Below the pieces are notes generated by a model. It did no database searches. It saw nothing but the letters and a program-made list of their open reading frames with translations, and was not told the DNA's origin. Made by a program: the position numbers and the translations under genes. This document shows positions 11,518 through 27,552 of a DNA stretch of 28,503 nt, piece by piece; position 1 is the stretch's first letter; each line of letters begins with the position of its first letter. The DNA is from a virus: positions 1 through 28,503 of IMG/VR virus record IMGVR_UViG_3300025687_000234. The stretch is one strand, 5' to 3'.

Positions 11518-11826
11518 TTATGTATATAGTTCTTCATATTGTTTATCTATTTGGGACTTAATAGGAAGGACCTCAAACTCCCAACATCTCTTTTCTAGTA
11601 CATAGTACTTATGCTGCATTACTTCTTTAGTTTGTATTGGCATGACGGGAATATGAGTTTTTGCCCACTCTTCTTTGGGAAATCCGTTGCGCTTATCGTA
11701 CCAATACTTGTGTACAACATCTATATCCACTACACGAAAAGTATCTCCGGCTTGAAAGACGCTAACTGAAGGATCACTTGTGTATTTAGATAAGACAAGC
11801 ACAGCACCTTCTGGGTAATCAGGCAT
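11518..11826 (-). CDS. Tail-tagged small protein (C-terminal QIDKQYEELYT)
   Basis: The 102-aa protein has an N-terminal beta-rich domain (EGAVLVLSKY, AGDTFRVVDID) of the SH3/KOW type and the shared C-terminal tail QIDKQYEELYT. Its ATG overlaps the upstream stop by eight bases (ATGCCTGA). It ends with TAA, followed by a separate AAGGAG for the SSB gene. The DNA from the end of the tail past the stop matches the copy at 17352-17594 over more than 20 bases. Tail codons here are GAA-GAA, so they do not form a GAGG ribosome site. The function is unknown. Confidence 0.8.
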   Translation of the reverse strand: MPDYPEGAVLVLSKYTSDPSVSVFQAGDTFRVVDIDVVHKYWYDKRNGFPKEEWAKTHIPVMPIQTKEVMQHKYYVLEKRCWEFEVLPIKSQIDKQYEELYT

Positions 11827-12091
11827 ATAGGTCCTCGTATTCCTTGTCAATTTTGTGTGCGACTTCTACTTTCTCTAGGAATCTGCTTCTTTTGGGGTAA
11901 CAACTACTAATAGGTATGTGTTTAGGACTATCAAAAAAGTCAACCATAATGTCATAAAGACCACTAAAAGAAACAACTACTCCTATTTTATCGTTTCGGT
12001 AGTGATAATTTACCCCACCTCGATACCAGCTATAGGGTACTGGTTTTTGTCGTACCAAGTCTCCAACTTTGAACCTAGTGTATTTCGCCAT
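11819..12091 (-). CDS. Tail-tagged small protein (KIDKEYEDLYA), SH3/KOW-like
   Basis: The 90-aa protein begins MAKYTRFKVGDLVRQKPVP, with the (K/R)-x-V-G-D-x-V start that many of these small proteins share, followed by strands DKIGVVVSFS and DIMVDFFD. The shared tail is KIDKEYEDLYA. GGAG lies six bases before the ATG, inside the DNA polymerase gene it overlaps by 17 bases. The tail codons GAGGACCTAT form the ribosome site of the next tagged gene, whose ATG lies inside the tail. Confidence 0.8.
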   Translation of the reverse strand: MAKYTRFKVGDLVRQKPVPYSWYRGGVNYHYRNDKIGVVVSFSGLYDIMVDFFDSPKHIPISSCYPKRSRFLEKVEVAHKIDKEYEDLYA

Positions 12092-13907
12092 AATTATCTC
12101 CAAATTGTATTCCAATCCCTAGCTCCCTATTGAGCTTAAGGTATTCATTTGTATCATCAATTGCTTTAGTCAAAAGTTCTCTCATTTCTTCCCTATGTCC
12201 TTTCCGTATCATCCATACACCTTCGTCATGAAATTGTGCAGTAAGTTGATCACGGGCATCTAGGACAAAACCTATCCATACATCAAAACAATAACTCCCT
12301 GTTCCTTGGTTTAGTGTACTGAAAATATCTTTGTCTGATCGAAGACTATAGTAAAAACCATTGACTGGATTACGAAGCCAACGACGGCCTACAGCCTCTA
12401 CAATTTCAGCATTGTTAACAACTTCCTTGATTGCCCAATTACGCTTCCAGTAGGCTTCCCAGAGGTTTGTAGCCTCCTTTATAGTGATACCTGCTGTCTT
12501 GGCAATCTTGGGTGGATAGGCTCCGTATGTACACGAGTAGTTCGTAACCTTGGCTCCACGCCTTTTGGCAACTAGTTCAGGTGTTGGATTGGTCTTATAT
12601 TGCTCTATCTCCTCTTTCGTTACCATACCACCCAAGGAAGCAATATCCAAGTGTGGATCAAACCCATCTTTGTTCTGTTCCTCTACGTACTCTGGATCGT
12701 AGGGATATATGTAATGTTGCTTGGTTCTATCTTCCAGAGAAGACATATCAGCACCACACAATTCAAATCCTTCAGGTGCAATTAGACAAGGACGAATAAA
12801 CTCACCATATGGTGCATTGACTCCCGGAAGATTTACAAGCTCTGAATGTTTAAGCCGTAGTGTGTTAGTAAATCCACTAGCCCTTGCAGTCAAATAGCCA
12901 TCTACTTGGTTCTTGAGAAATCCTTCTAGGATAGACAGCCTATGGTTGACAGTGAACAGTCCTTCAAGTTCCTCAAGGGCAGGCTCTATATCTATCAGTG
13001 AAGCAACAGAATCAGTAAGCTCTGGTCCTCCAATAACTGTAATTTGTGGTACGTCCTCTTTCTTCTTGTTTGCCTTGTACGTACACGGTTTCCAACCTAA
13101 GCTGTATAACCAATTCTTTACTTGATCATGACTATTGGGATTTGCAACTTCATAGCCTATGATTTCCTTGATTGATCCATCTTCTTCTCGTTCATACTCC
13201 TGTAGTAGCTTTGTCCATCGTTCTCCTGCTGCAGATAGGGTCTTGTCTTTTTTGTACATAATCTTTGGTTCAACCCTTTTAGCATATACAGGAACCTTTG
13301 GCATAGCTTTTTCTAGGACTATACATTTATTATACGCTATTTCTGAGAGGATGTCAATACCTGATTTGCATTTTTCTACATCTAGCTTCCATTTACTCTT
13401 AGATGCAAGATGCAGGCACTTGGCTTTAAAGTTCAAGTAGTGTATAAATGCCTTTACATTCTCGCTCTTACGGTATATAGCCAGAAGCTCTCGTTTGAAC
13501 AGGTCCCACAGCTTCTTGTTGATCTTGACATCTTCAGTGCAGCGATGGATATAAGTATCAAGCGATAGTCCTAGCCAATCACTAATCTCTGGTTTCTTTA
13601 TTCCCAGTCTTTCACCCCATACTTCTAATCCATGTCGTCTTTCTTCTGGACGTAAGTACCAACTGATGGGTAGGGTATCAATTTTGTTTATATGCTCAAG
13701 GCTAATATCAAGGATTCGTTCCAGTGTTGGAATGTCAAAGCCAATGATGTGATGGCCAATGAAGACACAATCCTTTCTGGAAAATAGTGCTCGCATTTCG
13801 TTGTAGTCCGTAAGGACGTTGATCTTACCTTGTTCTTCATAAACAAGACAGTAAATCTTTGTAGGCTCTAGGCCATCTCCTTCAAGGTCGAATACAATTT
13901 CATTCAT
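12075..13907 (-). CDS. T7-like family A DNA polymerase with 3'-5' exonuclease
   Basis: The 610-aa replicative polymerase has an exonuclease domain: exo I FDLEGDGLEP (Asp7, Glu9), exo II GHHIIGFDIPTLER (Asp58) and exo III YIHRCTEDVKIN (Asp126). The polymerase domain shows motif A CGADMSSLEDRTKQH (Asp387), motif B KRRGAKVTNYSCTYGAYPPK (Lys453, Tyr461) and motif C AQFHDEGVWM (HDE at 560-562). The Ser-Ser after motif A Asp and the FDPHLDIA that follows resemble marine T7-like polymerases. The start is set by ATG at 13907 within the tail of the preceding tagged gene, with GAGGA six bases upstream. Confidence 0.93.
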   Translation of the reverse strand: MNEIVFDLEGDGLEPTKIYCLVYEEQGKINVLTDYNEMRALFSRKDCVFIGHHIIGFDIPTLERILDISLEHINKIDTLPISWYLRPEERRHGLEVWGERLGIKKPEISDWLGLSLDTYIHRCTEDVKINKKLWDLFKRELLAIYRKSENVKAFIHYLNFKAKCLHLASKSKWKLDVEKCKSGIDILSEIAYNKCIVLEKAMPKVPVYAKRVEPKIMYKKDKTLSAAGERWTKLLQEYEREEDGSIKEIIGYEVANPNSHDQVKNWLYSLGWKPCTYKANKKKEDVPQITVIGGPELTDSVASLIDIEPALEELEGLFTVNHRLSILEGFLKNQVDGYLTARASGFTNTLRLKHSELVNLPGVNAPYGEFIRPCLIAPEGFELCGADMSSLEDRTKQHYIYPYDPEYVEEQNKDGFDPHLDIASLGGMVTKEEIEQYKTNPTPELVAKRRGAKVTNYSCTYGAYPPKIAKTAGITIKEATNLWEAYWKRNWAIKEVVNNAEIVEAVGRRWLRNPVNGFYYSLRSDKDIFSTLNQGTGSYCFDVWIGFVLDARDQLTAQFHDEGVWMIRKGHREEMRELLTKAIDDTNEYLKLNRELGIGIQFGDNYGEIH

Positions 13908-14181
13908 ACAAATCCTCATACTCCTTGTCTATCTTGGGGGTAATAGGCACTCTTTCAAATCTCCAAGCAAATCCAGCAAACCCATCTGCCATTTCAATAA
14001 CATCTTGATCATAGGCATCGTTTGCATCATCGTACTCTTCTTCCCCCGTAGACTTATACCAATGCGTAGTTCCATCAATCTCAACAACAAAAATGGTGTC
14101 CATATATTCAGAGAAACAGTGATTTAGGGGTACACGTCTAAGTCGTACCAAATCTCCACGATTAAATTCAATAGCAGTCAT
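13900..14181 (-). CDS. Tail-tagged small protein (KIDKEYEDLYE)
   Basis: The 93-aa protein starts MTAIEFNRGDLVRLRRVPL, a GDLVR-type SH3/KOW-like start also seen at 11819-12091. An acidic loop (STGEEEYDDANDAYD) follows, then WRFERVPITP and the tail KIDKEYEDLYE. The tail DNA contains two ribosome-site-like stretches, AAGGAG and GAGGA, and the DNA polymerase ATG. The ATG overlaps the upstream stop (ATGA). The role is unknown. Confidence 0.8.
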   Translation of the reverse strand: MTAIEFNRGDLVRLRRVPLNHCFSEYMDTIFVVEIDGTTHWYKSTGEEEYDDANDAYDQDVIEMADGFAGFAWRFERVPITPKIDKEYEDLYE

Positions 14182-14444
14182 GTGTATAAACTTTCATATT
14201 TCTCATCTATCTTTTGTTTAGGTAATTCTGCAACCTCTACATCACGGATTGTTAGAACCCATATATCGTGGGGTGTGTTAGCTAGTTTGAATGCAACTCC
14301 ACAAATATAGAATCTGATTCTACTTGGTCGCCCCACATAAGTGATTATGTCTATATCCCCCTTTTGATAGGGATAAAAGTCTCTTTTAAATCGAACTGGC
14401 ATTCCTACGCAAGGTATAAAGAATGTAGAACTAACAAGAGTCAT
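14178..14444 (-). CDS. Tail-tagged small protein (KIDEKYESLYT)
   Basis: The 88-aa protein shares its core with the next tagged gene: FIPCVGMPVRFKRDFYPYQK here and FTPEVGMWLRFKNSYAEYDK there, so the two are tandem duplicates. It ends with the tail QKIDEKYESLYT. Its ATG overlaps the upstream stop, and its stop overlaps the next ATG (ACATGA). Tail codons are GAA-AGT and make only a weak ribosome site. Confidence 0.8.
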   Translation of the reverse strand: MTLVSSTFFIPCVGMPVRFKRDFYPYQKGDIDIITYVGRPSRIRFYICGVAFKLANTPHDIWVLTIRDVEVAELPKQKIDEKYESLYT

Positions 14445-14686
14445 GTGTATAGGCTTTCGTACTCTGGGTCAATTTTTTGCTTAGGTGGTTCGAGTATTTC
14501 AAAGTCACTGTGATATGCTATCCAAGAATCTCTGGGATCATCGGATAGGAAAAATATCGTCTCGTTCTTGTCAAGTATGCGCTTAATCATCACCACACTT
14601 CCTTTATCGTATTCGGCGTAACTATTTTTAAACCTAAGCCACATTCCTACTTCTGGTGTAAAGACATTAATAGACAAATTCGGCAT
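14441..14686 (-). CDS. Tail-tagged small protein (KIDPEYESLYT), tandem duplicate of its neighbour
   Basis: The 81-aa protein has a VGMWLRFKN core, a GSVVMIKRI strand and the tail QKIDPEYESLYT. It matches the 14178-14444 protein in its N-terminal half and in the PPKQKID/LPKQKID linker before the tail. It overlaps the primase-helicase gene by 20 bases. The ATG at 14686 has AAAAGG directly before it, an unusually short spacing. Confidence 0.75.
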   Translation of the reverse strand: MPNLSINVFTPEVGMWLRFKNSYAEYDKGSVVMIKRILDKNETIFFLSDDPRDSWIAYHSDFEILEPPKQKIDPEYESLYT

Positions 14687-16256
14687 CCTTTTCTACGTCT
14701 TTCAATTGCATTACTTCCTTGTCAAAGATGGCATAACCGGCAGGACCAGTGTTACCACCAGCACGAGCTTTCTCGATAGAAAAGAATGTAGTCCTACGAG
14801 TATGCTCATTGGCATGTTCCTTGTCACGCTTTAGATTAATAATCGTATTGGCAACGTTTGCAATATTACGACTGCCACGGGTCTTACCATCATCATTGGT
14901 GTGGCTAATCATACACAGACAAAAACGAAGTTCCTTAGCCAACAGTTTCAATCGCTGACTGACACGATCAAGTTTCTTACGTTCGTCTTCTCCCTCAAGA
15001 CCTGTACCAATCCAAGTGATGTGATCAAGAAAGATAAAGTTACAACCACAGGCACTAACAAGAAAACGGATAGTGTCAATCAATTTGTTCTCATCTTCCA
15101 TGTCAAAGGACTCATAGATAAATATCTTGTTGTCTTGTTCCTTGACTGCACTCTTGTAGGCTTTCATTACATCATCGACAGAGGTCTTGTGTTGTGGATG
15201 TACGTGTGGATAGTTATCTTCATAGGTAGCAATGGCCCTTACAGTAGTACCTTCGTCTTCTTCAAGGTGAATGAGGCCCAGACGACAATTCTCTTCTGTC
15301 TTTAGTAGATGGTGCTCAATGGCCCTGAAAATCTCTGTCTTGCCGATTCCCGGTTCTCCCTTGAATACCACTACCTCTCCCTTGTGAAGGCCGTACAGCA
15401 TCTCCTGAAGCCCAGTAAAGGGGTATGTACCAATTTGGTCTTCATCACTTTCCTCAAGGGACTTGGCAATGTCGTCAAAGGCACTGATTACGTTATCGGG
15501 AGTAAACCTCTTGACTTGTTTGAACAGACGAACAAAGTCTACATAGTCCCCGTTGATAAGATAGTCATTTGGGTCCTTGTACTTTGTCATGTCCATCTTG
15601 AAAGTCTTGTTGAAATCGAACAGGGAAGCAATTTCTGTAGTTGCCTTCTGTCCGGGTTCGTCGCTATCAAGGGCAAAGATAATCTTGTCAAATTGGTTAA
15701 TCTTGTGCCAATCCTTTGTGCAGTCACGACGAGCAGAACTACTGGATTGTACACTTACGACAGCACACATTGGGTCTAGCATCTGACTGGCAGCAAGGGC
15801 ATCAAACTCCCCCTCGACAATCATAATGGTTCCATAGGCATTGGGGTCAAATTTATCAATACCGAAACAACCGGCATCACGGATAGGACCACTTGTATGA
15901 AATGACTTCTTCTCCATGTTGCGAATCTTGACGGCACCATTAGGGTATGGGAAACCTACCTCGTAATCAAAGCCGTCAGGACGATCTCTTGTCTTGACTA
16001 CACGAGTAGAGACACCAAACCTTTTGAATGTATCGACAGTAATACCACGATGGGGCTTAAATTCGAAAAATTCTTCTACAATATCTTCTTTTTTTAGCAT
16101 ATTTTTCTCTTCTTTGTTTTCTAATTCATACGGACTATACTTTTTACCACACGAGAAGCACTGCCCACCGCCCCATTCATTCAAGGAAAAGGCATCGCTT
16201 GACTTACCACAAGGACAAGGAATGTGTGAGGTGTACTTACGTGTAGAGTTCTTCAT
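14667..16256 (-). CDS. T7 gp4-like primase-helicase
   Basis: The 529-aa protein has an N-terminal zinc motif (Cys14, Cys16, Cys33, Cys36 in IPCPCGKSS and GGGQCFSCGKKY), a TOPRIM primase domain (IMIVEGEFDALAA with Glu149, and FALDSDEPGQK with Asp197 and Asp199) and a RecA-like helicase domain (FKGEPGIGKTEI Walker A at 299-308, NFIFLDHITWI Walker B with Asp411, SHTNDDGKTRGSRNIANVAN with DNA-contact residues). It unwinds DNA and primes the lagging strand. The first zinc pair is CxC rather than CxxC. The start at 16256 lies inside the tail codons of the upstream gene. An in-frame ATG at 16100 could give a helicase form without the zinc domain. Confidence 0.93.
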   Translation of the reverse strand: MKNSTRKYTSHIPCPCGKSSDAFSLNEWGGGQCFSCGKKYSPYELENKEEKNMLKKEDIVEEFFEFKPHRGITVDTFKRFGVSTRVVKTRDRPDGFDYEVGFPYPNGAVKIRNMEKKSFHTSGPIRDAGCFGIDKFDPNAYGTIMIVEGEFDALAASQMLDPMCAVVSVQSSSSARRDCTKDWHKINQFDKIIFALDSDEPGQKATTEIASLFDFNKTFKMDMTKYKDPNDYLINGDYVDFVRLFKQVKRFTPDNVISAFDDIAKSLEESDEDQIGTYPFTGLQEMLYGLHKGEVVVFKGEPGIGKTEIFRAIEHHLLKTEENCRLGLIHLEEDEGTTVRAIATYEDNYPHVHPQHKTSVDDVMKAYKSAVKEQDNKIFIYESFDMEDENKLIDTIRFLVSACGCNFIFLDHITWIGTGLEGEDERKKLDRVSQRLKLLAKELRFCLCMISHTNDDGKTRGSRNIANVANTIINLKRDKEHANEHTRRTTFFSIEKARAGGNTGPAGYAIFDKEVMQLKDVEKDAEFVY

Positions 16257-16524
16257 ATTTTCTATCTATTTGTACTTTTTGCGGTCCTATTTTAATTAAT
16301 CCGGGATCATCAATGCAATAAAATCTTCCGGTATCCCCCACTAATGTATTTTCGCAATTATGTAGTTCCCGGTGTTCTACATTAAAATCGACAAAAAGAC
16401 TACCATCATCTATTTTAAATACTGTACCTACATAACCACCCAGTTGGGAACTCCAAGCAGTTTGTTGTGTTTCTGGTTTATTAGGAGTCTGGATAACTTT
16501 ATCACCGACCGCAAAGTGCCTCAT
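16237..16524 (-). CDS. Tail-tagged small protein (QIDRKYEELYT)
   Basis: The 95-aa protein begins MRHFAVGDKVIQTP, an SH3/KOW-like start, with YVGTVFKIDDGSLFVDFNVE as the next strands and the tail QIDRKYEELYT. The tail codons also carry the ATG of the primase-helicase in another frame, with a 20-base overlap. The ATG at 16524 follows GGGAAG. An earlier GTG at 16530 is less likely. The function is unknown. Confidence 0.78.
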   Translation of the reverse strand: MRHFAVGDKVIQTPNKPETQQTAWSSQLGGYVGTVFKIDDGSLFVDFNVEHRELHNCENTLVGDTGRFYCIDDPGLIKIGPQKVQIDRKYEELYT

Positions 16525-16526
16525 TT

Positions 16527-16619
16527 TCACTTCCCTTCTGTATGTTCAAAAGTATTTGTTCTGACCCAAGGACTATTGCGAATATAGATATTATACTGTT
16601 CTTGTGCATCTTTGTCCAT
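16527..16619 (-). CDS. 30-aa hypothetical microprotein
   Basis: The frame encodes MDKDAQEQYNIYIRNSPWVR and continues TNTFEHTEGK with TGA. It is fitted to both neighbours: its ATG overlaps the upstream stop (TGATG) with AGAGG before it, and its stop lies two bases before the next ATG. It is hydrophilic and aromatic and has no recognisable motif. The exact fit in the operon is the main evidence that it is translated. Confidence 0.55.
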   Translation of the reverse strand: MDKDAQEQYNIYIRNSPWVRTNTFEHTEGK

Positions 16620-17098: not shown

Positions 17099-17100
17099 AT

Positions 17101-17340: not shown

Positions 17341-17351
17341 TTAATTTCTCC

Positions 17352-17594
17352 TTATGTATATAGTTTTTCGTATTGTTTGTCAATTTTTTGTACAAGACTG
17401 ACCTTTTCAAACCGATAAGCCAGCCCCTCCCATTCTTCCCAACCCCGGCCTATTATTAAAAAAGTAAACCCAAATGCTTTTTGTACCTTACTGATTGGGA
17501 AAGTACGGTCCATGTATTGTGCAAAATATTCGTTAGTTTTATTGTCTTCATTGTCTTTTAGTTTAATTATATCTCCAACTTTAAATTCAGTCAT
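17352..17594 (-). CDS. Tail-tagged small protein (KIDKQYEKLYT)
   Basis: The 80-aa protein starts MTEFKVGDIIKLKDNEDN (the SH3/KOW-like VGDxI start), then FTFLIIGRGWEEW, a RFEKVSLV linker and the tail QKIDKQYEKLYT. It ends with TAA and a separate AAGGAG for the following TTG start. The nucleotides around the end match the copy at 11518-11826. Tail codons are GAA-AAA, so no GAGG is formed. The ATG overlaps the upstream stop (ACATGA). Confidence 0.8.
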   Translation of the reverse strand: MTEFKVGDIIKLKDNEDNKTNEYFAQYMDRTFPISKVQKAFGFTFLIIGRGWEEWEGLAYRFEKVSLVQKIDKQYEKLYT

Positions 17595-17824
17595 GTATAC
17601 AAATCCTCATATTTCTTATCCACTTGATGGACTAGTCTTTCTATTACCCAATGTTTTCGGACACGTATGCTATTATAGTCAATGGCGTTTATCCTAAAGC
17701 CAGTATAATCAGGACGGCCTATACAAGACTTAAGGTAGATATAGTTCTTTCCTTCATCCCACAATGCGTTATACCAACGTTCAGGACCTGCATCCTTTGC
17801 TTTAAAAATTACGGGAGTCATCAT
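17591..17824 (-). CDS. Tail-tagged small protein (QVDKKYEDLYT)
   Basis: The 77-aa protein has no clear VGD start but is beta-rich (GKNYIYLKSC, TGFRINAIDYN, IRVRKHWVIE) and carries the tail QVDKKYEDLYT. The tail codons include GAGGA nine bases before the next ATG, with an ACATGA junction. Two ATGs in tandem (17824, 17821) and a GTG at 17830 are possible starts, with AGGTGG upstream. Confidence 0.78.
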   Translation of the reverse strand: MMTPVIFKAKDAGPERWYNALWDEGKNYIYLKSCIGRPDYTGFRINAIDYNSIRVRKHWVIERLVHQVDKKYEDLYT

Positions 17825-18189
17825 GCCCACCTATATTCATTATACTCATTTTTATTGCACTTGTCAAGTTCATTGAAGGACCAGCAGTTATTATTACCGA
17901 CATAGACCATGCATTCTTGTCCACATTCTGTCGTCATAGTCTCTCGATTGTACATGTATCCTTCACTTTCCAATTGATCTAGACGAGTGAGTGTAGCCCC
18001 ATCGACTTCCCACAACTCCCCAATGATCTTACTACCCTCTTCGTAATAGGAGACGGGGAAGGATGGATAATTACGATACAGACATAGACCCTCAAGCTTG
18101 GCCTCTTCACTGACCAGACGAGAGGTTCTTAGCAGTCCATTATTCCAATGACCGGACTTCAGTGTCCCATAGACAAAGACTTTATTCAT
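17821..18189 (-). CDS. Gamma-glutamylcyclotransferase-like (GGCT/AIG2) protein
   Basis: The 122-aa protein starts MNKVFVYGTLKSGHWNNGLL, the substrate-binding loop (YGTLK) of the GGCT/BtrG/AIG2 fold, and continues with LEGLCLYRNYPSFPVS and LWEVDGATLTRLDQLESEGY, where the Glu in LESEGYMY takes the place of the catalytic acid. The family opens gamma-glutamyl amides by forming 5-oxoproline. In amidoligase operons it is predicted to process or reverse gamma-glutamyl links. It lacks the shared tail but follows a tagged gene with an ACATGA overlap and lies one side of the ligase cassette. Confidence 0.85.
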   Translation of the reverse strand: MNKVFVYGTLKSGHWNNGLLRTSRLVSEEAKLEGLCLYRNYPSFPVSYYEEGSKIIGELWEVDGATLTRLDQLESEGYMYNRETMTTECGQECMVYVGNNNCWSFNELDKCNKNEYNEYRWA

Positions 18190-18503
18190 GTATACAAATC
18201 CTCATATTCTTTATCGACATGTTGTTTAGTTGGCTTTCTGGAGAGTAGGGAAATACCGGAATTTAAAAAGTCATATATCTTATCTACTCCTACTTCAAAC
18301 CCTACCTCTATACCGGGTGTTTTGGAAAGAACCCTACCGGGAAGGATAGGATTATTGTACTTTCCAAAAGCAGGATGAGCAGCACAAAGTTCCTCTTTCG
18401 TTATTATTTCCACAACAGCCTCACATTTTTCAAGACCCCTGCTAAAAGGAAATTTGACAGTATCCCCTACCAAATACACTGTACCATTTCTGTCCTTGTA
18501 CAT
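18186..18503 (-). CDS. Tail-tagged small protein (HVDKEYEDLYT)
   Basis: The 105-aa protein starts MYKDRNGTVYLVGDTVKFPF (VGDTV), with a middle containing ILPGRVLSKTPGIEVGFEVG and the tail QHVDKEYEDLYT. The tail codons contain GAGGA nine bases before the ATG of the GGCT-like gene. Its own ATG follows the upstream stop as TGATG. The function is unknown. Confidence 0.8.
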   Translation of the reverse strand: MYKDRNGTVYLVGDTVKFPFSRGLEKCEAVVEIITKEELCAAHPAFGKYNNPILPGRVLSKTPGIEVGFEVGVDKIYDFLNSGISLLSRKPTKQHVDKEYEDLYT

Positions 18504-18805
18504 CAGGTATATAGCTCCTCATACTTCTTGTCTATTTGGACTTTATTCTTTAGCACGTCTAAATCATCTCGGAAAAACCACCAACCGCCGACGACACCAT
18601 GTGGGTTCTGGCCATCTAAACTATGCCCTCTGTTACGCATACTTGTGCGACAGAAGTTGTCTTCAAAATAAACTCCGGTGTAACAACTCTTATGAGCCAC
18701 AACTATCCCAACTCTTCCATCCCAAAAGGCTATGCAATTACCGGAATTGACACTATTCCTTGAGTTTTTTTGCATGACCCTAGTACCGATAGGTATTTTA
18801 TTCAT
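18503..18805 (-). CDS. Tail-tagged small protein (QIDKKYEELYT)
   Basis: The 100-aa protein starts MNKIPIGTRVMQKNSRNSVN, with strands GRVGIVVAHK and TGVYFEDNF and a Gly/Trp loop (VVGGWWFF), then KVQIDKKYEELYT. Tail codons GAGGAG give a near-perfect ribosome site before the next ATG. It overlaps its upstream neighbour (ACATGA). The SH3-like pattern is inferred from the GTRV start and strand spacing. Confidence 0.8.
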   Translation of the reverse strand: MNKIPIGTRVMQKNSRNSVNSGNCIAFWDGRVGIVVAHKSCYTGVYFEDNFCRTSMRNRGHSLDGQNPHGVVGGWWFFRDDLDVLKNKVQIDKKYEELYT

Positions 18806-19095
18806 GTGTACAATTCCTCATATTGTTTGTCAATCTGTATTGTAGCTGGTTTCAAGAGGCTTTCCAATTTAGGGACAAAATCATACTGTTTTAAGAGGTG
18901 ACAGACACTTATCAAGGCACGTATAAATTCTTCATCTATATTTCTATTTTGATTGGCATAATGAAACCAGAAATTGTGTCCCTGATTTGTGCTCATCCAG
19001 CTAAAAGCTCCGTAAAGTTGCTGACTTTGATCCTCTGTAAGAAGGTTATAAAAACTGTCTTTATGCAAACTATTGACAAGATTTACAAGAGACAT
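18802..19095 (-). CDS. Tail-tagged protein with a helical, non-SH3 domain (QIDKQYEELYT)
   Basis: The 97-aa protein lacks the beta-rich SH3-like pattern and looks helical (LVNLVNSLHKDSFYNLL, QSQQLYGAFSWMS, DEEFIRALISVCHLLKQYDF), yet it carries the same tail QIDKQYEELYT. This shows that the tail is attached to unrelated domains. The ATG overlaps the upstream amidoligase stop (TAATG) and the tail codons GAGGAA precede the next ATG. The function is unknown. Confidence 0.8.
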   Translation of the reverse strand: MSLVNLVNSLHKDSFYNLLTEDQSQQLYGAFSWMSTNQGHNFWFHYANQNRNIDEEFIRALISVCHLLKQYDFVPKLESLLKPATIQIDKQYEELYT

Positions 19096-20593: not shown

Positions 20594-20604
20594 GGATAGT
20601 CTCC

Positions 20605-21426
20605 TTAGTTGTAGTATTCGGGGACAAACGAAAGAACAGGATACATATGCTCTTCTGGTTTTGTCGTTGCAGCAAACTTGTGCTCAAGGTCCAGCTTTGC
20701 AGAGTCTAGTCCACGAAGGACACCAAGTGTCGTATAGAATACCTTGTGAATGGTATCCTTGTTACGAAGCCAAGCATTGCTCAGTGGACGATATTCCATA
20801 CCATATTTCTTGGGACGGAAAGAACCGGGAGCACCATAGAGAGTACGACGAAGGTTATCATCATCCCAAGACTTGGAAAGACCCAGCAAATACTTATCCA
20901 ACTGCTGGGCAACAAGACAACAATCGGCAATGTGTCCTTTGTAATTGGGGTCTGCATAGTTACCCTCACTAAGCCAAGAGATGTGGACGTGACCACTACC
21001 AGTACGAAATGGTTCTGTCGTCTGTGGCCGTGGGTTTGCTTGTCCTTCTTTGTAGGCATTGAAGTCAGGTTCACAACCCAATTCGAGAGTATGGGCAGGC
21101 AGACTATCAAAGTAACGCTTGTCAAACCTTGCCGTAGGAGTTGGAACCAATGATGCATTGGGGTTCTTGCGTATGATCATATCCTTCATTTGTCCGACAA
21201 CAGAGGTAATGTTCGTAAAGAACTGCTCGAAGTTATCGGTAGGATCGATGTTGAACTCTGCAGCCACACCATCTACCTGCACTGCACCATTACGTACGGC
21301 ATAGGGCCTAGCTTTTGTTCCGGGGATAAGAGGACCATCCCGTGTTTCGGCAGAGATGAATTGACCAGTCGTACGATCCTTGAGAAACAGTTCAGGATCG
21401 GCACCAAACTTGAATGCTGTTGTCAT
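20605..21426 (-). CDS. phiEco32-type COOH-NH2 ligase (type 2)
   Basis: The 273-aa protein starts MTTAFKFGADPELFLKDRTT and continues with GAVQVDGVAAEFNIDPTDN, LELGCEPDFNAY, TGSGHVHISWL, and PKKYGMEYRPLSNAWL. This is the pattern of the phage COOH-NH2 ligase type 2 family (GADPEL...QVDGVA.EFN), a glutamine-synthetase-fold ligase first named from phage phiEco32. It probably joins an acid and an amine using ATP. It is one of two GS-fold ligases in the cassette and overlaps the class II amidotransferase gene (ATGA). The substrate is unknown. Confidence 0.88.
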   Translation of the reverse strand: MTTAFKFGADPELFLKDRTTGQFISAETRDGPLIPGTKARPYAVRNGAVQVDGVAAEFNIDPTDNFEQFFTNITSVVGQMKDMIIRKNPNASLVPTPTARFDKRYFDSLPAHTLELGCEPDFNAYKEGQANPRPQTTEPFRTGSGHVHISWLSEGNYADPNYKGHIADCCLVAQQLDKYLLGLSKSWDDDNLRRTLYGAPGSFRPKKYGMEYRPLSNAWLRNKDTIHKVFYTTLGVLRGLDSAKLDLEHKFAATTKPEEHMYPVLSFVPEYYN

Positions 21427-22556
21427 GCGTTAACTCCTTCTTGTTTGACAATATCCTCTAGGTTATCTTTACTGAACCCATAGGACTCTAGGTTTTCTGA
21501 TTCTACACAATCAGTGCAGATGTATTCTTTTGTAAAGTGCAAAGCTGGCAAACCCTTGCTGTCAAGATTACAACTGATGTTACCACATACTGCACATGGC
21601 TTGTTTAGCTCTTTGAGAAGATCGCTTTCCGACACAATTCGATTACCGACCTTGTAGAAATCTTCCTCTTTGGGGGACTGATTGTTCTGCTTACCTTTGT
21701 CTTTGGTATGCGGCTGTCTTCGTCCGTTCTTCCAGTGTTCTGTGTCGTTGTAGTTCCAGTGTTGGGAACGAAAGGAAGCTTGTTGCTGCCCATAGGTATA
21801 ATACGTGGTGACAGGGGGCGAATAGTAGTTGGGTTGAACTATAATACGCTGATCACCATAGGCATTTGGATCAATGGTAATCAGTGCATGAGGTGGTACT
21901 GGTTCAATCTCATAATCCTTAAGGTCATTTGCACGATCTAAAGCTGCTGTCAAGAAACCCCTTTCAGATGCCCACCAAAGCTTGGATGTTTGTTTGTGTC
22001 TGGCAATGAACAGGGTACGAGAATGATTACGAATAAGACGGATACAATCATCGCGCCTATCGTACCACTGAAGGGCATAGGCCATGGATGTAGAATCCTT
22101 GTACACACTCTCCAAAGTTTCTTTGATGCCCTTGTCAGGAGCCTTGCTATTGGAATCTAGCAGGTTGTAGAAAGCTTCACTATCAGTCTCGTACTTGTCA
22201 CTGTCTTTAAACTTGCCGGTGATTGTACCGTTGTGCATACCAAGAAGACTGTTGGTTTTGAATGGGTGGTTGTTGGCAACTTCAATCTTACCGACAGTGG
22301 CATGACGAGAATGACCCATAAGTGATTTGATACGATCCTCATTCATGAACTTGTGGAACTCTGGGGTAAAGATATAGGCCGATGATGGAAGCTCACTATG
22401 ATCCCATTTGTAGTATGCCTTGTTCTTCTTGTCGAAGGTCATCACAGTACCACAACCATGAGCACCACGAAGGGTATTCATCATGAACAGTGTCTTCCAA
22501 ATCGTCATGTCATTCTTGGTAACGAACATGCCAGTAAATCCGATAAGACCACACAT
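21423..22556 (-). CDS. Class II (Ntn) glutamine amidotransferase-like protein with C-terminal zinc motif
   Basis: The 377-aa protein starts MCGLIGFTG, so Cys2 becomes the N-terminal nucleophile after Met removal. RGAHGCGTVM, GHSRHATVGKIEVANNHPF and LGMHNGTITG are the class II amidotransferase substrate motifs, as in PurF and GlmS. After about residue 230 a low-complexity Tyr/Gln-rich linker follows, then a Cys cluster (CAVCGNISC, then YICTDC). The last part is likely a zinc-binding add-on and replaces the usual synthetase domain. It could supply ammonia, or act as an amidase on a glutamyl product. Start overlaps the upstream stop (TAATG). Confidence 0.88.
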   Translation of the reverse strand: MCGLIGFTGMFVTKNDMTIWKTLFMMNTLRGAHGCGTVMTFDKKNKAYYKWDHSELPSSAYIFTPEFHKFMNEDRIKSLMGHSRHATVGKIEVANNHPFKTNSLLGMHNGTITGKFKDSDKYETDSEAFYNLLDSNSKAPDKGIKETLESVYKDSTSMAYALQWYDRRDDCIRLIRNHSRTLFIARHKQTSKLWWASERGFLTAALDRANDLKDYEIEPVPPHALITIDPNAYGDQRIIVQPNYYSPPVTTYYTYGQQQASFRSQHWNYNDTEHWKNGRRQPHTKDKGKQNNQSPKEEDFYKVGNRIVSESDLLKELNKPCAVCGNISCNLDSKGLPALHFTKEYICTDCVESENLESYGFSKDNLEDIVKQEGVNA

Positions 22557-23320
22557 TATTGAGTAACCTCCTTGAGGTAATTGGAGTATGTTTCAATTTG
22601 TCCTCTTGTTTCCAAGAAGGGCGTAAACTCAACAGACCACAACGTAGCCTTATTGGTATTCTTGCTGTACAAAATCTTCAAGACAACGAAGTCACAAGTC
22701 ACCATCTTGCGTAAGTCGTTAACAAGGTCTTGAACAGGGATGGGGATAGCCGTAACGGGATTATAGATGAAGCCATTAACCCTTGAACGATGCCGCCAAT
22801 TAATCTTGGACTTGTCTACTGCTACACCCTTGTCGTCATGAGCACGGAGGATTTTACGCTCCTTGTAGATGATTCCATGAGTGGTAGTCAGATGAATGCG
22901 ATACTCACTTGACTTGGGTATATATTGACGATGGACAGTAGCGCCCCTGAAGCCATCATCATTTGGAAAGAGCGTCTGTTCTTCATCGGCATAGGAAGTG
23001 CTGTACCCAACACAGCCATCCAGATTACCTGCAACTGGTGGTGGAAGCATCTCGTTAAGTGCAGCTTGAGTGGCACCAACACGAATAGGTCGATTGATAA
23101 CCTTCGTGTATTTGACTGGATTGTCTGGAAATTTTGGAAACTTGTCCTTGTACCCCCAATTGATGACTACATGACTGGCTGCCGGTACATAAGTACTTGG
23201 ACGACCAATATCCACTCCGGGTGGCACTATGATGGAAAATTCTCCACGGCAGTTCAGAGCAACTTCCTTGAAAGAAGCACCAATCTTCTTGGGAAAGAAG
23301 TATACTTTATTCTTCATCAT
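22556..23320 (-). CDS. Divergent ATP-grasp-like protein
   Basis: The 254-aa protein is likely a distant paralogue of the ATP-grasp ligase at 25244-26092. Matching points are SHVVINWG (VLFRWG there), VINRPIRVGATQAALNEM (NRAEAIHYVNDKRQSRKDF there), SSEYRIHLTTTHGII (AEYRVFVANGRVV) and DFVVLKILY...WSVEFTPFLE (DFGGVDVMV...CLEINSAPS). The metal-site Asn of the E-x-N motif reads Thr here (VEFTP), and DFGxxD is DFVVLK, so catalysis may be altered or lost. It might be a partner subunit. The start at 23320 has GGAG upstream. A second ATG is at 23317. Confidence 0.6.
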   Translation of the reverse strand: MMKNKVYFFPKKIGASFKEVALNCRGEFSIIVPPGVDIGRPSTYVPAASHVVINWGYKDKFPKFPDNPVKYTKVINRPIRVGATQAALNEMLPPPVAGNLDGCVGYSTSYADEEQTLFPNDDGFRGATVHRQYIPKSSEYRIHLTTTHGIIYKERKILRAHDDKGVAVDKSKINWRHRSRVNGFIYNPVTAIPIPVQDLVNDLRKMVTCDFVVLKILYSKNTNKATLWSVEFTPFLETRGQIETYSNYLKEVTQ

Positions 23321-23946
23321 TGCTTGCGTTCTCCAAGTCCGTAGCGATCAATGACATCAAAGAAATATGTCTCTGTCGGTTCATGACCATATTCTGGATG
23401 AGGTTGGAAGCATAGACACCTCGTCTCTTCGTAGAAACATACCTCTACTTCCTTGTCGTCAATATCCGGGACAACTTGCCTATCTGATTCTGCGCCTTCG
23501 TAGTATGTAGATTCCTTTGCCGTTGCAATAATAGTTGCATCATGGGTAGGCTTCATGACTTGGTGGTGGGTACTGGTTACTTCCAGAGGTTCATCCAAAT
23601 CGGCATCGTCAATCTGGTGGTTACCAGTATGTCCATCTGCATGTTGCCACATTGATCCACCACTTAGAGCGTTAAGTAGCTGACCACCACGACAAATACC
23701 AGCCATGTCAATACCCAACTTACGACATGATTCAAAGATTTTTACCTCTTCTTCATCTCTCTGTGGACTTGCATAGGTCTTGCGATTACGTTGCTCATTA
23801 TACAGATTGGGGGAAATGTCTGCCCCACCAGTAAAGACCACAAGACTTGCATTATTCATATGATTGACGACTAGCCACTTTCGCTTACGGAAGATGTCCT
23901 TAACTGAGCTACCAGTATATTTTCCAACTACATATACTGCTTTCAT
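23317..23946 (-). CDS. Class I glutamine amidotransferase-like hydrolase (PuuD/peptidase C26 type)
   Basis: The 209-aa protein shows VVFTGGADISPNLYNEQ, typical of gamma-glutamyl hydrolases of the PuuD type, the nucleophile elbow AGICRGGQLLN (Cys85) and CFQPHPEYG (His183, Glu185), so the catalytic triad is complete. Such enzymes cut gamma-glutamyl amide bonds or release ammonia from glutamine. Its place between the ligases suggests it trims or recycles a gamma-glutamyl product. The ATG overlaps the upstream stop (ATGA). Confidence 0.88.
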   Translation of the reverse strand: MKAVYVVGKYTGSSVKDIFRKRKWLVVNHMNNASLVVFTGGADISPNLYNEQRNRKTYASPQRDEEEVKIFESCRKLGIDMAGICRGGQLLNALSGGSMWQHADGHTGNHQIDDADLDEPLEVTSTHHQVMKPTHDATIIATAKESTYYEGAESDRQVVPDIDDKEVEVCFYEETRCLCFQPHPEYGHEPTETYFFDVIDRYGLGERKQ

Positions 23947-24797
23947 TGCATTTCCTTTGCCACTTGTTCAAAATTACCAAGAAAGTTACACAAGTCTTCA
24001 TGTGTGTAGTCCTTGCTCTGTTCCTTGAGTTTTTCGTACTTGTCGATAAAGAATGTCTTCATCTTGACCCCCTTCTTGACCCTTGGTAGTTTACTCATTA
24101 CGATCATGGGAAGCTTAGAACCCCCAAGGATATAATCATCAACACCTTGGTAACTTTGACTTGTACTCATCGGCTTGTGTTCCATATCCCACTCACCATG
24201 GTCTGGATTGAAGAACCTACCTGCTGCAATCTTCTTGGTGCGCCAACCACCAGCAGACAGAATAAAGCCATGACTAATACCTGTATGCTGCCCCTTGACA
24301 TTAAAGAAGTGAGCAAGGAAGAATACAAGACTTGGGTCATAGCCCAGACCCGTATACTTGACCCAGAATGGCAGGACAGAAGAACGGTGTTCATAACAGG
24401 TACGAGTGCCCTTCAAGAAGGCATTCATGACGTACATGTTAATCTTGTTAGTAGTACACAAGAAGCCAACAATACGGCCATTGTCCTTTCGGATTATGTG
24501 GAAGTCGTCACCAAGATAGTGAATCATTGAGCGAAAGACGGACCTTGGTCCAAAGTACCATTCAAGAAAGTCCTGTGCTCCGGGCTGATTATAACCTGAG
24601 ACAACACAACCGAATGCATTCGCCTTTCGGTAGGTCGTTGAAGTCATGTTAGCAGTGCAAGACGTACCTACATTTGTATTTACTGCAGTCTTTGTGGCAC
24701 TAACCAGAAGCATTGTTGTATGCGGGTCACCACTTTCTTGCATGAACTTGACAAGTTCCTTGTAGTTGTCATGCTCGGTGAAGGATTCTTTACTCAT
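23943..24797 (-). CDS. Hypothetical 284-aa protein of the ligase cassette
   Basis: The start MSKESFTEHDNYKELVKFMQ at 24797 lies inside the tail codons of the upstream tagged gene, with GAGG six bases before it. The protein has a mixed alpha/beta pattern, a Thr/Ser-rich part (TKTAVNTNVGTSCTANMTST), aromatic-rich segments (AQDFLEWYFGPRSVFRSMIH) and GISHGFILSAGGWRTKKIAA. I do not recognise a family. The constant association with the ligase genes suggests it is an enzyme or structural part of the same pathway. Confidence 0.75.
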   Translation of the reverse strand: MSKESFTEHDNYKELVKFMQESGDPHTTMLLVSATKTAVNTNVGTSCTANMTSTTYRKANAFGCVVSGYNQPGAQDFLEWYFGPRSVFRSMIHYLGDDFHIIRKDNGRIVGFLCTTNKINMYVMNAFLKGTRTCYEHRSSVLPFWVKYTGLGYDPSLVFFLAHFFNVKGQHTGISHGFILSAGGWRTKKIAAGRFFNPDHGEWDMEHKPMSTSQSYQGVDDYILGGSKLPMIVMSKLPRVKKGVKMKTFFIDKYEKLKEQSKDYTHEDLCNFLGNFEQVAKEMQ

Positions 24798-25020
24798 AGA
24801 GAGCCTCATATTTTGTGTCGATTTGTTGTCGAATTGGTTGCAGTTTAGTCCATACCTCACTGTACATACCGAATCTTCCACTTGGGTGTTCCGCCAAGAG
24901 ATATGAACCTGTCGTCGTATATCCACAAACAGTTACAATTTCTCCTTTGCGTATTATTTTACCCAATTTAGGATATACGTCATACTCACATCGAAACTTA
25001 TCACCAATTTTGTGCTTCAT
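24790..25020 (-). CDS. Tail-tagged small protein (QIDTKYEALYE), SH3/KOW-like
   Basis: The 76-aa protein begins MKHKIGDKFRCEYDVYPKLG, with GEIVTVCGY and GSYLLAEHPSGRFGMY strands, an SH3/KOW-like design, and the tail QQIDTKYEALYE. The tail codons GAG-GCT supply GAGG, and the next ATG lies in the last codons (TATGAGTAA). Its ATG overlaps the tail-like frame of the preceding interrupted gene. Confidence 0.8.
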   Translation of the reverse strand: MKHKIGDKFRCEYDVYPKLGKIIRKGEIVTVCGYTTTGSYLLAEHPSGRFGMYSEVWTKLQPIRQQIDTKYEALYE

Positions 25021-25058
25021 TCATACAGCCCTTCATACTCTTTGTCGATTTTGACTGA

Positions 25059-25247
25059 TTATTCGACGGGTTTCCAAAAACTACGAATACATCCATAATC
25101 ACGACTTTTTTCATCCTTAACAATAAAGTCATTAGAACTATTAACCCTTGTAATTATGGTACGGTAACCTTTCACTATGCCCCTATGAACAACATCACTA
25201 TTACTAATCCTTTCTACAACCATACCTACTTTTGGTGTCCAACTCAT
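25059..25247 (-). CDS. Tail-tagged gene interrupted by an in-frame TAA before the tail
   Basis: The frame encodes MSWTPKVGMVVERISNSDVV, an SH3-like VGM start, and ends FWKPVE at TAA (25061-25059). The same frame continues after the stop with SVKIDKEYEGLYE and a TGA at 25019-25017, in perfect register with the next gene's ATG at 25020 (ATGA). The tail is thus present but separated from its protein by one stop codon. One base change (for example CAA or GAA to TAA) would explain it. Stop readthrough or a sequencing error are the alternatives. The ATG at 25247 overlaps the ATP-grasp stop. Confidence 0.75.
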   Translation of the reverse strand: MSWTPKVGMVVERISNSDVVHRGIVKGYRTIITRVNSSNDFIVKDEKSRDYGCIRSFWKPVE

Positions 25248-26092
25248 ATTCTCGCCTTTTCGTCTAGTGATGGATGGATATAGCGCAAGTATTCCCCACG
25301 ATTAGCTGCAGGAATACGTTCATTGCCGTGTTCAATCATGTAGTCAAAGACCTTGGCAACACATGACTGTCTGTATGGGCTTGTCTGCGATGGGGCACTA
25401 TTGATTTCCAGACAATAGCATTGTCCATCTGGACCAACCATTACATCTACCCCACCAAAGTCAAGGGCAGTCATATTGAATACACGACAGGCAAGGTCCA
25501 CTACATTCAATGGCCATTCGCCCCAACGTACATTGTCGAAACGACCACCACGGGCTACATTCCATGCAATGTCTTGAGGATTACCGGGAGTCTTGCAAGC
25601 TACCCATACTACACGACCATTGGCCACAAAGACACGGTATTCTGCAATCTTTGGAATGAACTCACTGATGTAGTATGGTCCATTTATTCGTCTTGTGGCG
25701 TCCATTACTTGTCCGATGTTGTCGCACTTGTAAAGGCTACGACCTTGGGCATGACGCTGAGGACGTATGATGAACGAGAGCGGTGCTCCGATGACAGGAA
25801 CATTCATGTCTAGTTCATGATAATCAAGCCACGTCCTTGGAGCCATACCGGCATCGGCAAAGTCCTTACGAGATTGGCGCTTGTCATTGACGTAGTGGAT
25901 AGCTTCCGCACGGTTGAATGTACGACGGGCACGAGCATTGCCTGTGCAACCCCAACGGAACAAGACATCTATGTCATTGGGGATTGGGTCCCGGTCAAGT
26001 AGGACAACCTGTGTGGGATTGTTCATGTTGTCACGAATGTTTTCAGTGCTTGTCTTGCCGAGCTTACGGCGTCTCAGAATGATGTTAGTCAT
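25244..26092 (-). CDS. ATP-grasp amide ligase (RimK-like)
   Basis: The 282-aa protein has ATP-grasp landmarks: NDKRQSRKDFADAG (lid/lysine region), SFIIRPQRHAQGRSLY, YYISEFIPKIAEYRVFVANG (hinge and EYRV), LDFGGVDVMVGPDGQCYCLE and then INSAPS (metal-binding D and E-x-N). This fold forms amide bonds through an acyl-phosphate. The partners downstream (class I and II amidotransferases, two GS-fold ligases, a GGCT) match published amidoligase systems. The ATG at 26092 overlaps the tail of the upstream tagged gene, which supplies GAGGAG. The substrate is unknown. Confidence 0.9.
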   Translation of the reverse strand: MTNIILRRRKLGKTSTENIRDNMNNPTQVVLLDRDPIPNDIDVLFRWGCTGNARARRTFNRAEAIHYVNDKRQSRKDFADAGMAPRTWLDYHELDMNVPVIGAPLSFIIRPQRHAQGRSLYKCDNIGQVMDATRRINGPYYISEFIPKIAEYRVFVANGRVVWVACKTPGNPQDIAWNVARGGRFDNVRWGEWPLNVVDLACRVFNMTALDFGGVDVMVGPDGQCYCLEINSAPSQTSPYRQSCVAKVFDYMIEHGNERIPAANRGEYLRYIHPSLDEKARI

Positions 26093-26343
26093 GTATACAA
26101 CTCCTCATACTTCTTGTCAATCATTGGCTTAGGTTCCTTGACCAATTCAAATCTGTGGGCATAGACCCTACAATCAGAATTTGGCTTGAATTGAATGAGA
26201 GCATATAGTTCAGGATTAACCCAATGATCAGGTGCAGGGTCAACACCAAGAACTGTATAGATTTCACCAAGCACTGGTGCATTTTCTGGTAGCCCAGTTC
26301 CTCCGGGCTTTATGCACCGTATTCTGTCTCCAACTTTAAACAT
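26089..26343 (-). CDS. Tail-tagged small protein (MIDKKYEELYT), SH3/KOW-like
   Basis: The 84-aa protein starts MFKVGDRIRCIKPGGTG, followed by GEIYTVLGVD and YALIQFKPN, the clearest SH3/KOW-like example, and ends KPMIDKKYEELYT. Tail codons GAGGAG form a near-perfect ribosome site for the ATP-grasp gene. The ATG at 26343 lies inside the tail of the upstream tagged gene (TATGTTTAA), with GAGG six bases before it. Confidence 0.8.
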   Translation of the reverse strand: MFKVGDRIRCIKPGGTGLPENAPVLGEIYTVLGVDPAPDHWVNPELYALIQFKPNSDCRVYAHRFELVKEPKPMIDKKYEELYT

Positions 26344-26608
26344 ATAGGTCCTCATAGTCTTTGTCCACTTGAAGGACAGGGTTGATGATTGTTATTTCTT
26401 TTTCCAGAATGCAAAGGGACCTTGATTCAACCACTGATAAAATTCGTTCTGGAGTGGGACTGGTCAGCCTAACTAGTGTATAGCCACGACCTATTTTGGT
26501 ACGATGCCCTACTATAACTCCAAACAATTTGTTTCTAAGCATTTCTAGACGATAGATTCCATTTATTGCCACACGAGTCCCAATAGGGAATTTTTCTTCC
26601 AGCGTCAT
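26336..26608 (-). CDS. Tail-tagged small protein (QVDKDYEDLYV)
   Basis: The 90-aa protein starts MTLEEKFPIGTRVAINGIYR (GTRV core), with FGVIVGHRTKIGRGYTLVRL strands and the tail LQVDKDYEDLYV. AGGAGGTCGT directly before the ATG at 26608 is a textbook ribosome site, and this is the first gene after the AT-rich repeat region. GAGGAC in the tail codons serves the next gene. Confidence 0.8.
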   Translation of the reverse strand: MTLEEKFPIGTRVAINGIYRLEMLRNKLFGVIVGHRTKIGRGYTLVRLTSPTPERILSVVESRSLCILEKEITIINPVLQVDKDYEDLYV

Positions 26609-26629
26609 ACGACCTCCTGTATATACCAA

Positions 26630-26793: not shown

Positions 26794-26798
26794 GCCTC

Positions 26799-27071
26799 TT
26801 AAGTATACAAATCTTCATATTTCTTGTCCACCTTTTCGACAGGGTTAAAGACAGAATTGAAATAACAACCATTATATCTTGACCAAGCACTCTTAAGATA
26901 TTGAGAACCGTTATCTATATATGGTTGATAGGTATATTTATTCCCCCCAAGGAGTTTAACCGCTGTGTATCTAAGCTTTTGTGTTTTTTGCATTACGAAT
27001 TTATAATCTGGCATGTGGTCTATGATGAACAACGTGCCAATGGGGTATTTAGGATCATCAGGATTAACCAT
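26799..27071 (-). CDS. Tail-tagged small protein (KVDKKYEDLYT) not followed by an overlapping gene
   Basis: The 90-aa protein starts MVNPDDPKYPIGTLFIIDHM, with strands KYTYQPYIDN and GCYFNSVFNP and the tail EKVDKKYEDLYT. AAGGAG precedes the ATG. It is followed by the AT-rich non-coding region rather than by a gene, yet keeps the tail, and its tail codons are GAA-GAT without GAGG. That supports selection on the peptide itself. Confidence 0.8.
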   Translation of the reverse strand: MVNPDDPKYPIGTLFIIDHMPDYKFVMQKTQKLRYTAVKLLGGNKYTYQPYIDNGSQYLKSAWSRYNGCYFNSVFNPVEKVDKKYEDLYT

Positions 27072-27183
27072 AGGTCTATTCTCCTTCTCAATAGGCCCTA
27101 GAAGGCTCTAGAATGGCTCAGGACGAGCGTTAAGGGGTTCTCAGGTCCTACCCTACCTGAAGAGGTATAACGACACTGTACGG
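27072..27183. other. 112-base non-coding stretch
   Basis: No gene is seen here. It contains short repeats on the minus strand (CCTGAG twice and TTCTAG twice) and a possible small stem (CAGGT...ACCTG), but no U-tract and no good promoter hexamers. The minus-strand end supplies the AAGGAG of the gene at 26799-27071. It might hold a weak regulatory hairpin. Confidence 0.5.
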
Positions 27184-27552
27184 TCAACTATAGAGGCTTT
27201 CATATTTAGGGTCAACTAGGGTAGTTTTAGGCTTGACTTTTGTAATGTTGTAATCGGGGTTGTTAAAGAGAACACTATAGTCATTTTCCTTACCTCTAAG
27301 TATGGGTTCTTTTAACATACGGAAAGTAAGTGCATTACTGCTAGGTCTTGTATACAGTCTAGAACAAAAGGCTGCTACTATTTTGTTATGAAATACTAAA
27401 CGAACCTCAGCCCGAATAAGAAACAAATCCCCGTGATAGACAGGGTTATCGTCTGAATCTACACAAACTTGCTTACCAATACGGTATGGATCATGAAAGT
27501 TATCCCACTCTTCATCATTCCATGCACAAGGATAGCCTTTGAATTCCCTCAT
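27184..27552 (-). CDS. Tail-tagged protein (LVDPKYESLYS) with larger N-terminal domain
   Basis: The 122-aa protein has an N-terminal domain unlike the others (EFKGYPCAWNDEEWDNFHDP), then strands (LFLIRAEVRLVFHNKIVAAF) and a KPKTTLVDPKYESLYS tail. It is the first tagged gene in transcription order and the most divergent tail. No gene overlaps its end, and its tail codons (GAA-AGC) do not form a ribosome site. GAGGG lies seven bases before the ATG. The function is unknown. Confidence 0.78.
   Translation of the reverse strand: MREFKGYPCAWNDEEWDNFHDPYRIGKQVCVDSDDNPVYHGDLFLIRAEVRLVFHNKIVAAFCSRLYTRPSSNALTFRMLKEPILRGKENDYSVLFNNPDYNITKVKPKTTLVDPKYESLYS

Follow-up and report, generated by a model that had tools for sequence, protein, structure and literature searches.

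Why should one phage end many small proteins with the same short peptide, when the proteins themselves have little in common? This question is raised by IMG/VR virus record IMGVR_UViG_3300025687_000234, analysed here as one window of 28,503 nucleotides, which is the complete 28.5-kb record of an uncultured virus, the record itself being a fragment. The best cultured matches of its DNA polymerase are found in Zobellviridae, e.g. Pseudomonas phage PA11 (49% identity) and Salinivibrio phage CW02 (48%), with the rhizobial phages ranking just after them. An earlier note on this DNA had described seventeen small genes ending in (I/V)DxxYExLYx. Below we report that the shared C-terminal peptide (the tail) is conserved as peptide, that other phages carry their own, different tails, and that tailed (tagged) genomes have a cassette of amidoligase, COOH-NH2 ligase, glutaminase and ATP-grasp genes; this wider pattern was overlooked in the earlier note.

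A shared tail on unlike small proteins

Scanning the window with the pattern [IV]D..YE.LY. followed by a stop gives 17 matches, every one on the minus strand, while the plus strand of the window and a reversed control pattern give none, which confirms the seventeen genes. No tail match appears in 2000 residue-shuffled proteomes either. The residues D, Y, E, L and Y are unchanged in 17/17 tails, and 11 of them finish with Thr, as had been claimed. Sixteen copies form the end of an uninterrupted open reading frame (ORF), and the tagged proteins have 76-122 residues. The genes are as follows, where SD stands for Shine-Dalgarno sequence and the tail pattern is the evidence unless another is given.

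11518..11850, minus strand: tagged small protein, tail QIDKQYEELYT; the next gene has its own SD past the stop
11819..12115, minus strand: tagged SH3-like protein, tail KIDKEYEDLYA (SH3-like profile E 2e-9)
13900..14181, minus strand: tagged SH3-like protein, tail KIDKEYEDLYE (SH3-like profile E 1e-7)
14178..14444, minus strand: tagged small protein, tail KIDEKYESLYT
14441..14686, minus strand: tagged small protein, tail KIDPEYESLYT
16237..16530, minus strand: tagged SH3-like protein, tail QIDRKYEELYT (PHROG 7871 E 4e-6; SH3-like profile E 8e-12)
17352..17594, minus strand: tagged SH3-like protein, tail KIDKQYEKLYT (SH3-like profile E 2e-8); the next gene has its own SD
17591..17830, minus strand: tagged small protein, tail QVDKKYEDLYT
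18186..18503, minus strand: tagged small protein, tail HVDKEYEDLYT
18503..18805, minus strand: tagged small protein, tail QIDKKYEELYT
18802..19095, minus strand: tagged small protein, tail QIDKQYEELYT; N-terminal part probably helical (low-confidence model)
24790..25020, minus strand: tagged SH3-like protein, tail QIDTKYEALYE (SH3-like profile E 1e-7)
25017..25247, minus strand: small gene, tail (25017-25058) severed by an in-frame TAA (tail pattern and reading frame)
26089..26355, minus strand: tagged SH3-like protein, tail MIDKKYEELYT (SH3-like profile; five-stranded barrel model)
26336..26629, minus strand: tagged small protein, tail QVDKDYEDLYV
26799..27071, minus strand: tagged small protein, tail KVDKKYEDLYT
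27184..27552, minus strand: tagged small protein, tail LVDPKYESLYS

The seventeenth copy (25017-25049) is in frame with the gene at 25059-25247 but comes after an in-frame TAA (...FWKPVE*SVKIDKEYEGLYE*), and the tail seems to have been lost recently; a contig search found no second copy spanning the TAA at 25059.

The likeness of the sixteen proteins ends sharply at the tail, with a mean pairwise identity of 0.70 over the last 10 residues versus 0.10 at residues -24 to -15. With the tail stripped they fall into 15 families (phmmer, 1e-3), and on this ground, together with the tail boundary, we reject full-length duplication within the genome, the outcome that would have removed the idea of a tag. 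The stripped proteins have no match at E 0.1 among 50,697 phage records, and the tail is supported as a feature of small proteins belonging to no named family. The protein at 18802-19095 matches PHROGs 16354 and 10949, both of which stop short of the tail; its single-sequence model is helical, of low confidence and too poor to use.

The N-terminal parts had been taken to be all different, and this is overstated, because an iterated SH3-like profile seeded from Sinorhizobium phage phiM6 recognises 6 of the 16 window proteins, the other 10 not being recognised; the separation into 15 families stands. For one of the six, 26089-26355, a model built with 13 sequences (mean pLDDT 74) predicts a small five-stranded SH3-like barrel with the tail outside it, and SH3 domains figure strongly among the PDB structures it matches best, at weak E-values (E 0.03). 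Its viral structure matches include untagged barrels of 60-66 residues.

Different tails in different phages

The full exact tail is found only in this phage and in the 6.0-kb contig L011, which has several copies; contigs L009 and L010 have one match each. Both L011 and the 8.8-kb contig L148, which come from one metagenome, match the window nearly exactly over the stretches checked and are probably the same phage. The exact tail is so limited because other phages carry a genome-wide tail of their own. In a first sample of 25 genomes, picked for relatives of the COOH-NH2 ligase or amidoligase and scanned de novo for a shared C-terminus, four have their own tail (CW02, CVT22, Klyazma and RHph_N3_19). 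Additional tagged genomes are phiM6, RHph_N3_13, RHph_I3_11, Pecta and the virus contigs G013, G016 and G020, so that the window and 11 others make 12. For the same ORFs, windows taken internally or at the N-terminus do not rise above background counts. The tails are listed below, with copy numbers that vary with the thresholds.

Sinorhizobium phage phiM6: tail DQEPxEDEExL, 13 copies
Three Rhizobium phages (RHph_N3_19, RHph_N3_13, RHph_I3_11): tail QxGDTEEDI, 15-17 copies
Citrobacter phage CVT22: tail LENE, 19 copies
Klebsiella phage Klyazma: tail LENK, 12 copies
Erwinia phage Pecta: tail LEND, 16 copies
Salinivibrio phage CW02: tail LLEENx, about 9 copies
IMG/VR contigs: G013, 14 copies; G016, 6 copies; G020, 9 copies

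The net charge of the tail is -2 to -5 in most genomes and -1.1 in Klyazma, compared with about 0 for untagged proteins, and its last residue differs by phage (T, I, L, V, E, K, D). At E 1e-3, almost every protein stripped of its tail stands alone within its genome. Across genomes, homologues compared with their tails stripped keep the domain and exchange the tail: CVT22 30820, Pecta 44621 and CW02 3209 end in LENE, LEND and ILEENV; Klyazma 37998 and CW02 gp1 in LENK and LLEENI; CVT22 35012 and Klyazma 31993 in LENE and LENK; CVT22 34552 and Pecta 40192 in LENE and LEND. In CVT22, the protein at 40843-41064 (L111 14844-15065) has a lone Klyazma-type LENK among the LENE tails, and its homologue is a tagged Klyazma protein.

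As for the domains, of the 149 tagged proteins overall 79 are recognised by the iterated SH3-like profile, and all 72 of its 72 matches in tagged genomes are on tagged proteins. CVT22, Klyazma and Pecta also have a second tagged family, marked by a PxWATH motif, and G020 has a similar ATH motif; the profile comparison of the two PxWATH groups is weak (19% probability).

The claim that the peptide rather than the DNA is conserved is supported by the codons, which differ synonymously at the invariant residues among the window copies, GAG, TAT and ACA being mildly favoured. The last codons often overlap the start of the next gene (ACATGA, TATGAATGA), which accounts for part of the codon bias and of the preference at the final residue; the primase/helicase gene at 14667-16256 has its start codon within the tail of 16237-16530, the tagged gene upstream of it (TATGAAGAAC), and several window genes have GAGGAG about 8 nt ahead of ATGA. 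In genes 11518-11850 and 17352-17594, however, the tail is kept although the next gene's own GGAG comes after it, and genes 26799-27071 and 27184-27552 keep it with no close downstream start. Tails are therefore kept where no ribosome-binding role is needed, and the constraint is on the peptide. Elsewhere, the synonymous codon use of the tails in phiM6, the Rhizobium phages and G013 equals genome usage, with no SD codon bias. When orthologues of RHph_N3_19 and RHph_N3_13 are compared, synonymous codon differences outnumber non-synonymous ones by 25 to 8 in the tails (3 of the 8 being D/E), versus 81 to 74 in the domains.

The Citrovirus tails LENE, LENK and LEND look shaped by the SD sequence, the E codon being GAG in 17/17, 11/12 and 15/16 cases, after TTG or CTG, which gives TTGGAGAATGAATAATG; the SD sequence is a partial cause of codon choice there. 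Selection on the peptide is seen in these phages too, because the last residue is uniform in each genome, different across genomes and encoded by synonymous codons, most clearly in Pecta (GAC/GAT).

Association with the amidoligase cassette

In the window the tagged genes are interleaved with the following untagged genes, among which a COOH-NH2 ligase, an Amidoligase_2, a class II glutaminase and an ATP-grasp gene are clustered as in the cassette of phiEco32/RIO-1 type.

17821..18189, minus strand: gamma-glutamyl cyclotransferase (GGACT), untagged (Pfam PF06094 E 3e-20)
19095..19979, minus strand: Amidoligase_2 (Pfam E 8e-10; PHROG 7469 E 2e-42)
20605..21426, minus strand: COOH-NH2 ligase, phiEco32 type (PHROG 3815 E 4e-60; Pfam E 1e-5)
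21423..22556, minus strand: class II glutamine amidotransferase (PHROG 4736 E 4e-45; Pfam GATase_6 E 2.5e-8)
22556..23320, minus strand: cassette ATP-grasp ligase (matches the same ORFs as the relatives' ATP-grasp gene)
23317..23946, minus strand: peptidase C26 / class I glutamine amidotransferase (Pfam E 6e-18; PHROG 7218 E 1e-47)
25244..26092, minus strand: second ATP-grasp ligase, R2K/RimK-like (PHROG 2599 E 6e-14; Pfam R2K_3 E 1e-4, below cut-off)

The last of these scores 22.6 bits against Pfam R2K_3, below the cut-off of 26.3, and is thus not placed in the R2K clade; its best relative (267 bits) is in contig G018 (from L230), where it also adjoins a C26 glutaminase. Elsewhere in the window, 6967-7967 encodes a MotA/TolQ/ExbB-like membrane protein (E 0.0015, below cut-off), the adjoining 195-aa protein is common to the three Rhizobium phages, and an HNH-endonuclease-like ORF at 1134-1592 is nested in a longer ORF at 920-1738.

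The COOH-NH2 ligase matches 317 phage records; a scan for the amidoligase across viral contigs found nothing. The complete five-gene cassette is present in 12 of 12 tagged genomes versus 11 of 27 cassette phages without tails, a group that includes some fragmentary records (Fisher p 4e-4; with lineages collapsed, 0.004). Control loci were gathered by ThyX and DNA polymerase, and shared tails occur in none of the 139 without a detected cassette; the one DNA-polymerase control locus with tails, L232, has the cassette on its full contig. This control is conservative, the loci of G016 and G020 being scored untagged with few copies inside the locus. Contig L280 (5.7 kb) has a single tail-like end.

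A further link comes from untagged phage RIO-1, whose gp10 (L312 2265-3461) has in one protein an SH3-like region N-terminal to the COOH-NH2 ligase domain (163-395). Its best SH3-like domain spans residues 85-144 (E 0.0024), with a first copy near residue 14 recognised by eye; gp10 is annotated as COOH NH2 ligase only. In contig G009, an SH3-like domain is on a 397-residue protein adjoining the cassette glutaminase. The SH3-like domain carries a tail in some phages and is joined to a cassette enzyme in others, which suggests that the tail may do the job of the fusion.

Taken together, shared tails suggest an undescribed protein-addressing or protein-modifying system. The explanation we favour, which we put a little short of an even chance, is that the tail serves as a C-terminal address private to each phage, with the cassette as its most likely reader. 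Each such phage would furnish 6-19 small proteins of the early region, chiefly diverged SH3-like barrels with a few other domains, with the same short and mostly acidic C-terminal peptide, and a phage-encoded partner would read this peptide and co-evolve with it. If that partner is the cassette of amidoligase, COOH-NH2 ligase and ATP-grasp enzymes encoded by the phage itself, the latter may bind the tails as docking sites or may use them as ligation acceptors to which it attaches something, and the small proteins would then carry ligase activity to various targets, or be modified and thereby switched. We infer both the cassette as reader and the effect of reading. RimK and tubulin-ligase type ATP-grasp enzymes work on acidic tails, and the acidic tails are for this reason counted in favour of the cassette. 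A broader proposal, which is possible but clearly less probable, is that several phage lineages use private-code tagging, in which a genome-encoded tail marks small adaptors to be recognised or covalently extended by the phage's own cassette; new early genes would join by gaining the tail, and its sequence divergence would let each system address only its own proteins.

Several points weigh against the cassette as reader. The sampling is weighted to cassette phages, and the lineages, being related, are not independent. The RIO-1 fusion is based on a weak domain score. Eleven complete-cassette phages, e.g. PA11 and GP100, have no tail, and the cassette can thus work without tails. No gene was found that is in all tagged and no untagged genomes. 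The variable last residue (T, I, L, V, E, K, D) fits one fixed C-terminal chemistry badly. Finally, the cassette has been proposed to alter host peptidoglycan (PMC5498523, PMC6256558); this can be reconciled with an address if the tagged barrels position the enzymes.

The cassette and the SH3-like barrels are already known, and the phage-specific tail pattern is a new kind of genome feature. Ordinary annotation misses the tails because each copy is a few residues. A tail that is uniform in each phage, different across phages and carried by unlike proteins is undescribed in the open-access literature searched, while subscription literature might mention it. The cassette is present in hundreds of sequenced phages with its role merely guessed, and the tails supply it with candidate substrates or partners.

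Rival roles and known systems

The strongest rival, which we think unlikely but worth serious attention, is that the tail docks onto a different hub of phage or host origin (for example RNA polymerase or the replication complex), much as the C-terminal tip of single-stranded DNA-binding protein (SSB) does, the cassette being a mere neighbour. The tagged genes flank DNA polymerase and primase genes besides the cassette, and many tails are acidic with a hydrophobic end (DDDI, EETL), as such docking would have it; however, no tails occur at related DNA polymerase loci that lack the cassette, the final residue in Citroviruses is E, K or D, and the RIO-1 fusion is left unexplained.

Rather improbable is an ordinary paralogous family of diverged SH3-like proteins with the C-terminus as its most conserved part. 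The iterated profile uniting 79 of 149 tagged proteins and the SH3-resembling model of 26089-26355 favour it, but it is countered by the drop of identity from 70% to 10% at the tail boundary, by homologues that keep the domain and swap the tail, and by the tagging of the other family, PxWATH, in Citroviruses and apparently, through a weak link, in G020.

Capsid targeting and degradation, two roles the earlier note had offered, are without positive evidence. A virion-packaging (ejection) tag that loads small proteins into the head, such as the capsid targeting sequence of T4 or the cargo peptides of encapsulins, typically is a single short peptide at the end of many small proteins that are unlike in other respects, and the tail has this very form; the tagged genes, though, belong to the early region beside replication and cassette genes, the tail has no link to head genes, and the cassette linkage goes unexplained, which makes this role quite improbable. 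Slightly more doubtful again is a C-terminal degron shortening the lifetime of early proteins, for which the tail is suitably short, C-terminal and on small early proteins, whereas a host protease should select one tail and the phages of related rhizobial hosts differ in theirs.

It is hardly credible that the tail is no protein feature at all and that the 3' end of the gene merely encodes a ribosome-binding site for the overlapping next gene: the Citrovirus GAG codons after TTG/CTG and the GAGGAG before ATGA favour it, but it is refuted for the window and the rhizobial phages, where an SD with a start 5-10 nt downstream is absent from several window copies (11518, 17352, 26799 and 27184 have tails despite the next gene's own SD or no start near), the phiM6, Rhizobium and G013 tails have no SD codon bias, and the GGACT gene 17821-18189 has the same overlap, yet is untagged. 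A graspetide-like core peptide was considered because the window tail contains Glu, Lys, Thr and Tyr, and was dropped because the tails of other phages are without those residues.

Compared with known systems, the window has all enzymes of the phage 'peptidoglycan modification' cassette (RIO-1, PSA-HP1, PA11, phiEco32), i.e. amidoligases, ATP-grasp, glutaminases and GGACT, in the Zobellviridae order. It differs in having two ATP-grasp genes and in its tagged small proteins, of which we found no published mention for the RIO-1/phiEco32-type cassette. The weak R2K_3 and TTL matches of 25244-26092 are reminiscent of the R2K/RimK/tubulin-tyrosine-ligase ATP-grasp peptide ligases (PMC4431377); these enzymes modify acidic protein tails, while 25244-26092 scores below the Pfam cut-offs. 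The SSB tip is alike as an acidic C-terminal peptide outside a small beta-barrel and a plausible docking site, but the tail is on 6-19 proteins per genome, has a phage-private sequence and is linked to the amidoligase cassette. The T4 capsid targeting sequence and encapsulin cargo peptides are alike in placing one short terminal peptide on unlike small proteins, but the T4 sequence is N-terminal and the window tail C-terminal, and the tagged genes are early and without a head-gene link. Pup/PafA pupylation is alike in having a carboxylate-amine ligase beside small proteins with special C-termini. Pup-like conjugation is nevertheless ruled out because the last residue varies: the last residue of the window tails is T, E, A, V or S where a C-terminal Gln/Glu would be needed, and unlike Pup with its conserved Glu/Gln, the tail ends in T, I, L, V, E, K or D according to the phage.

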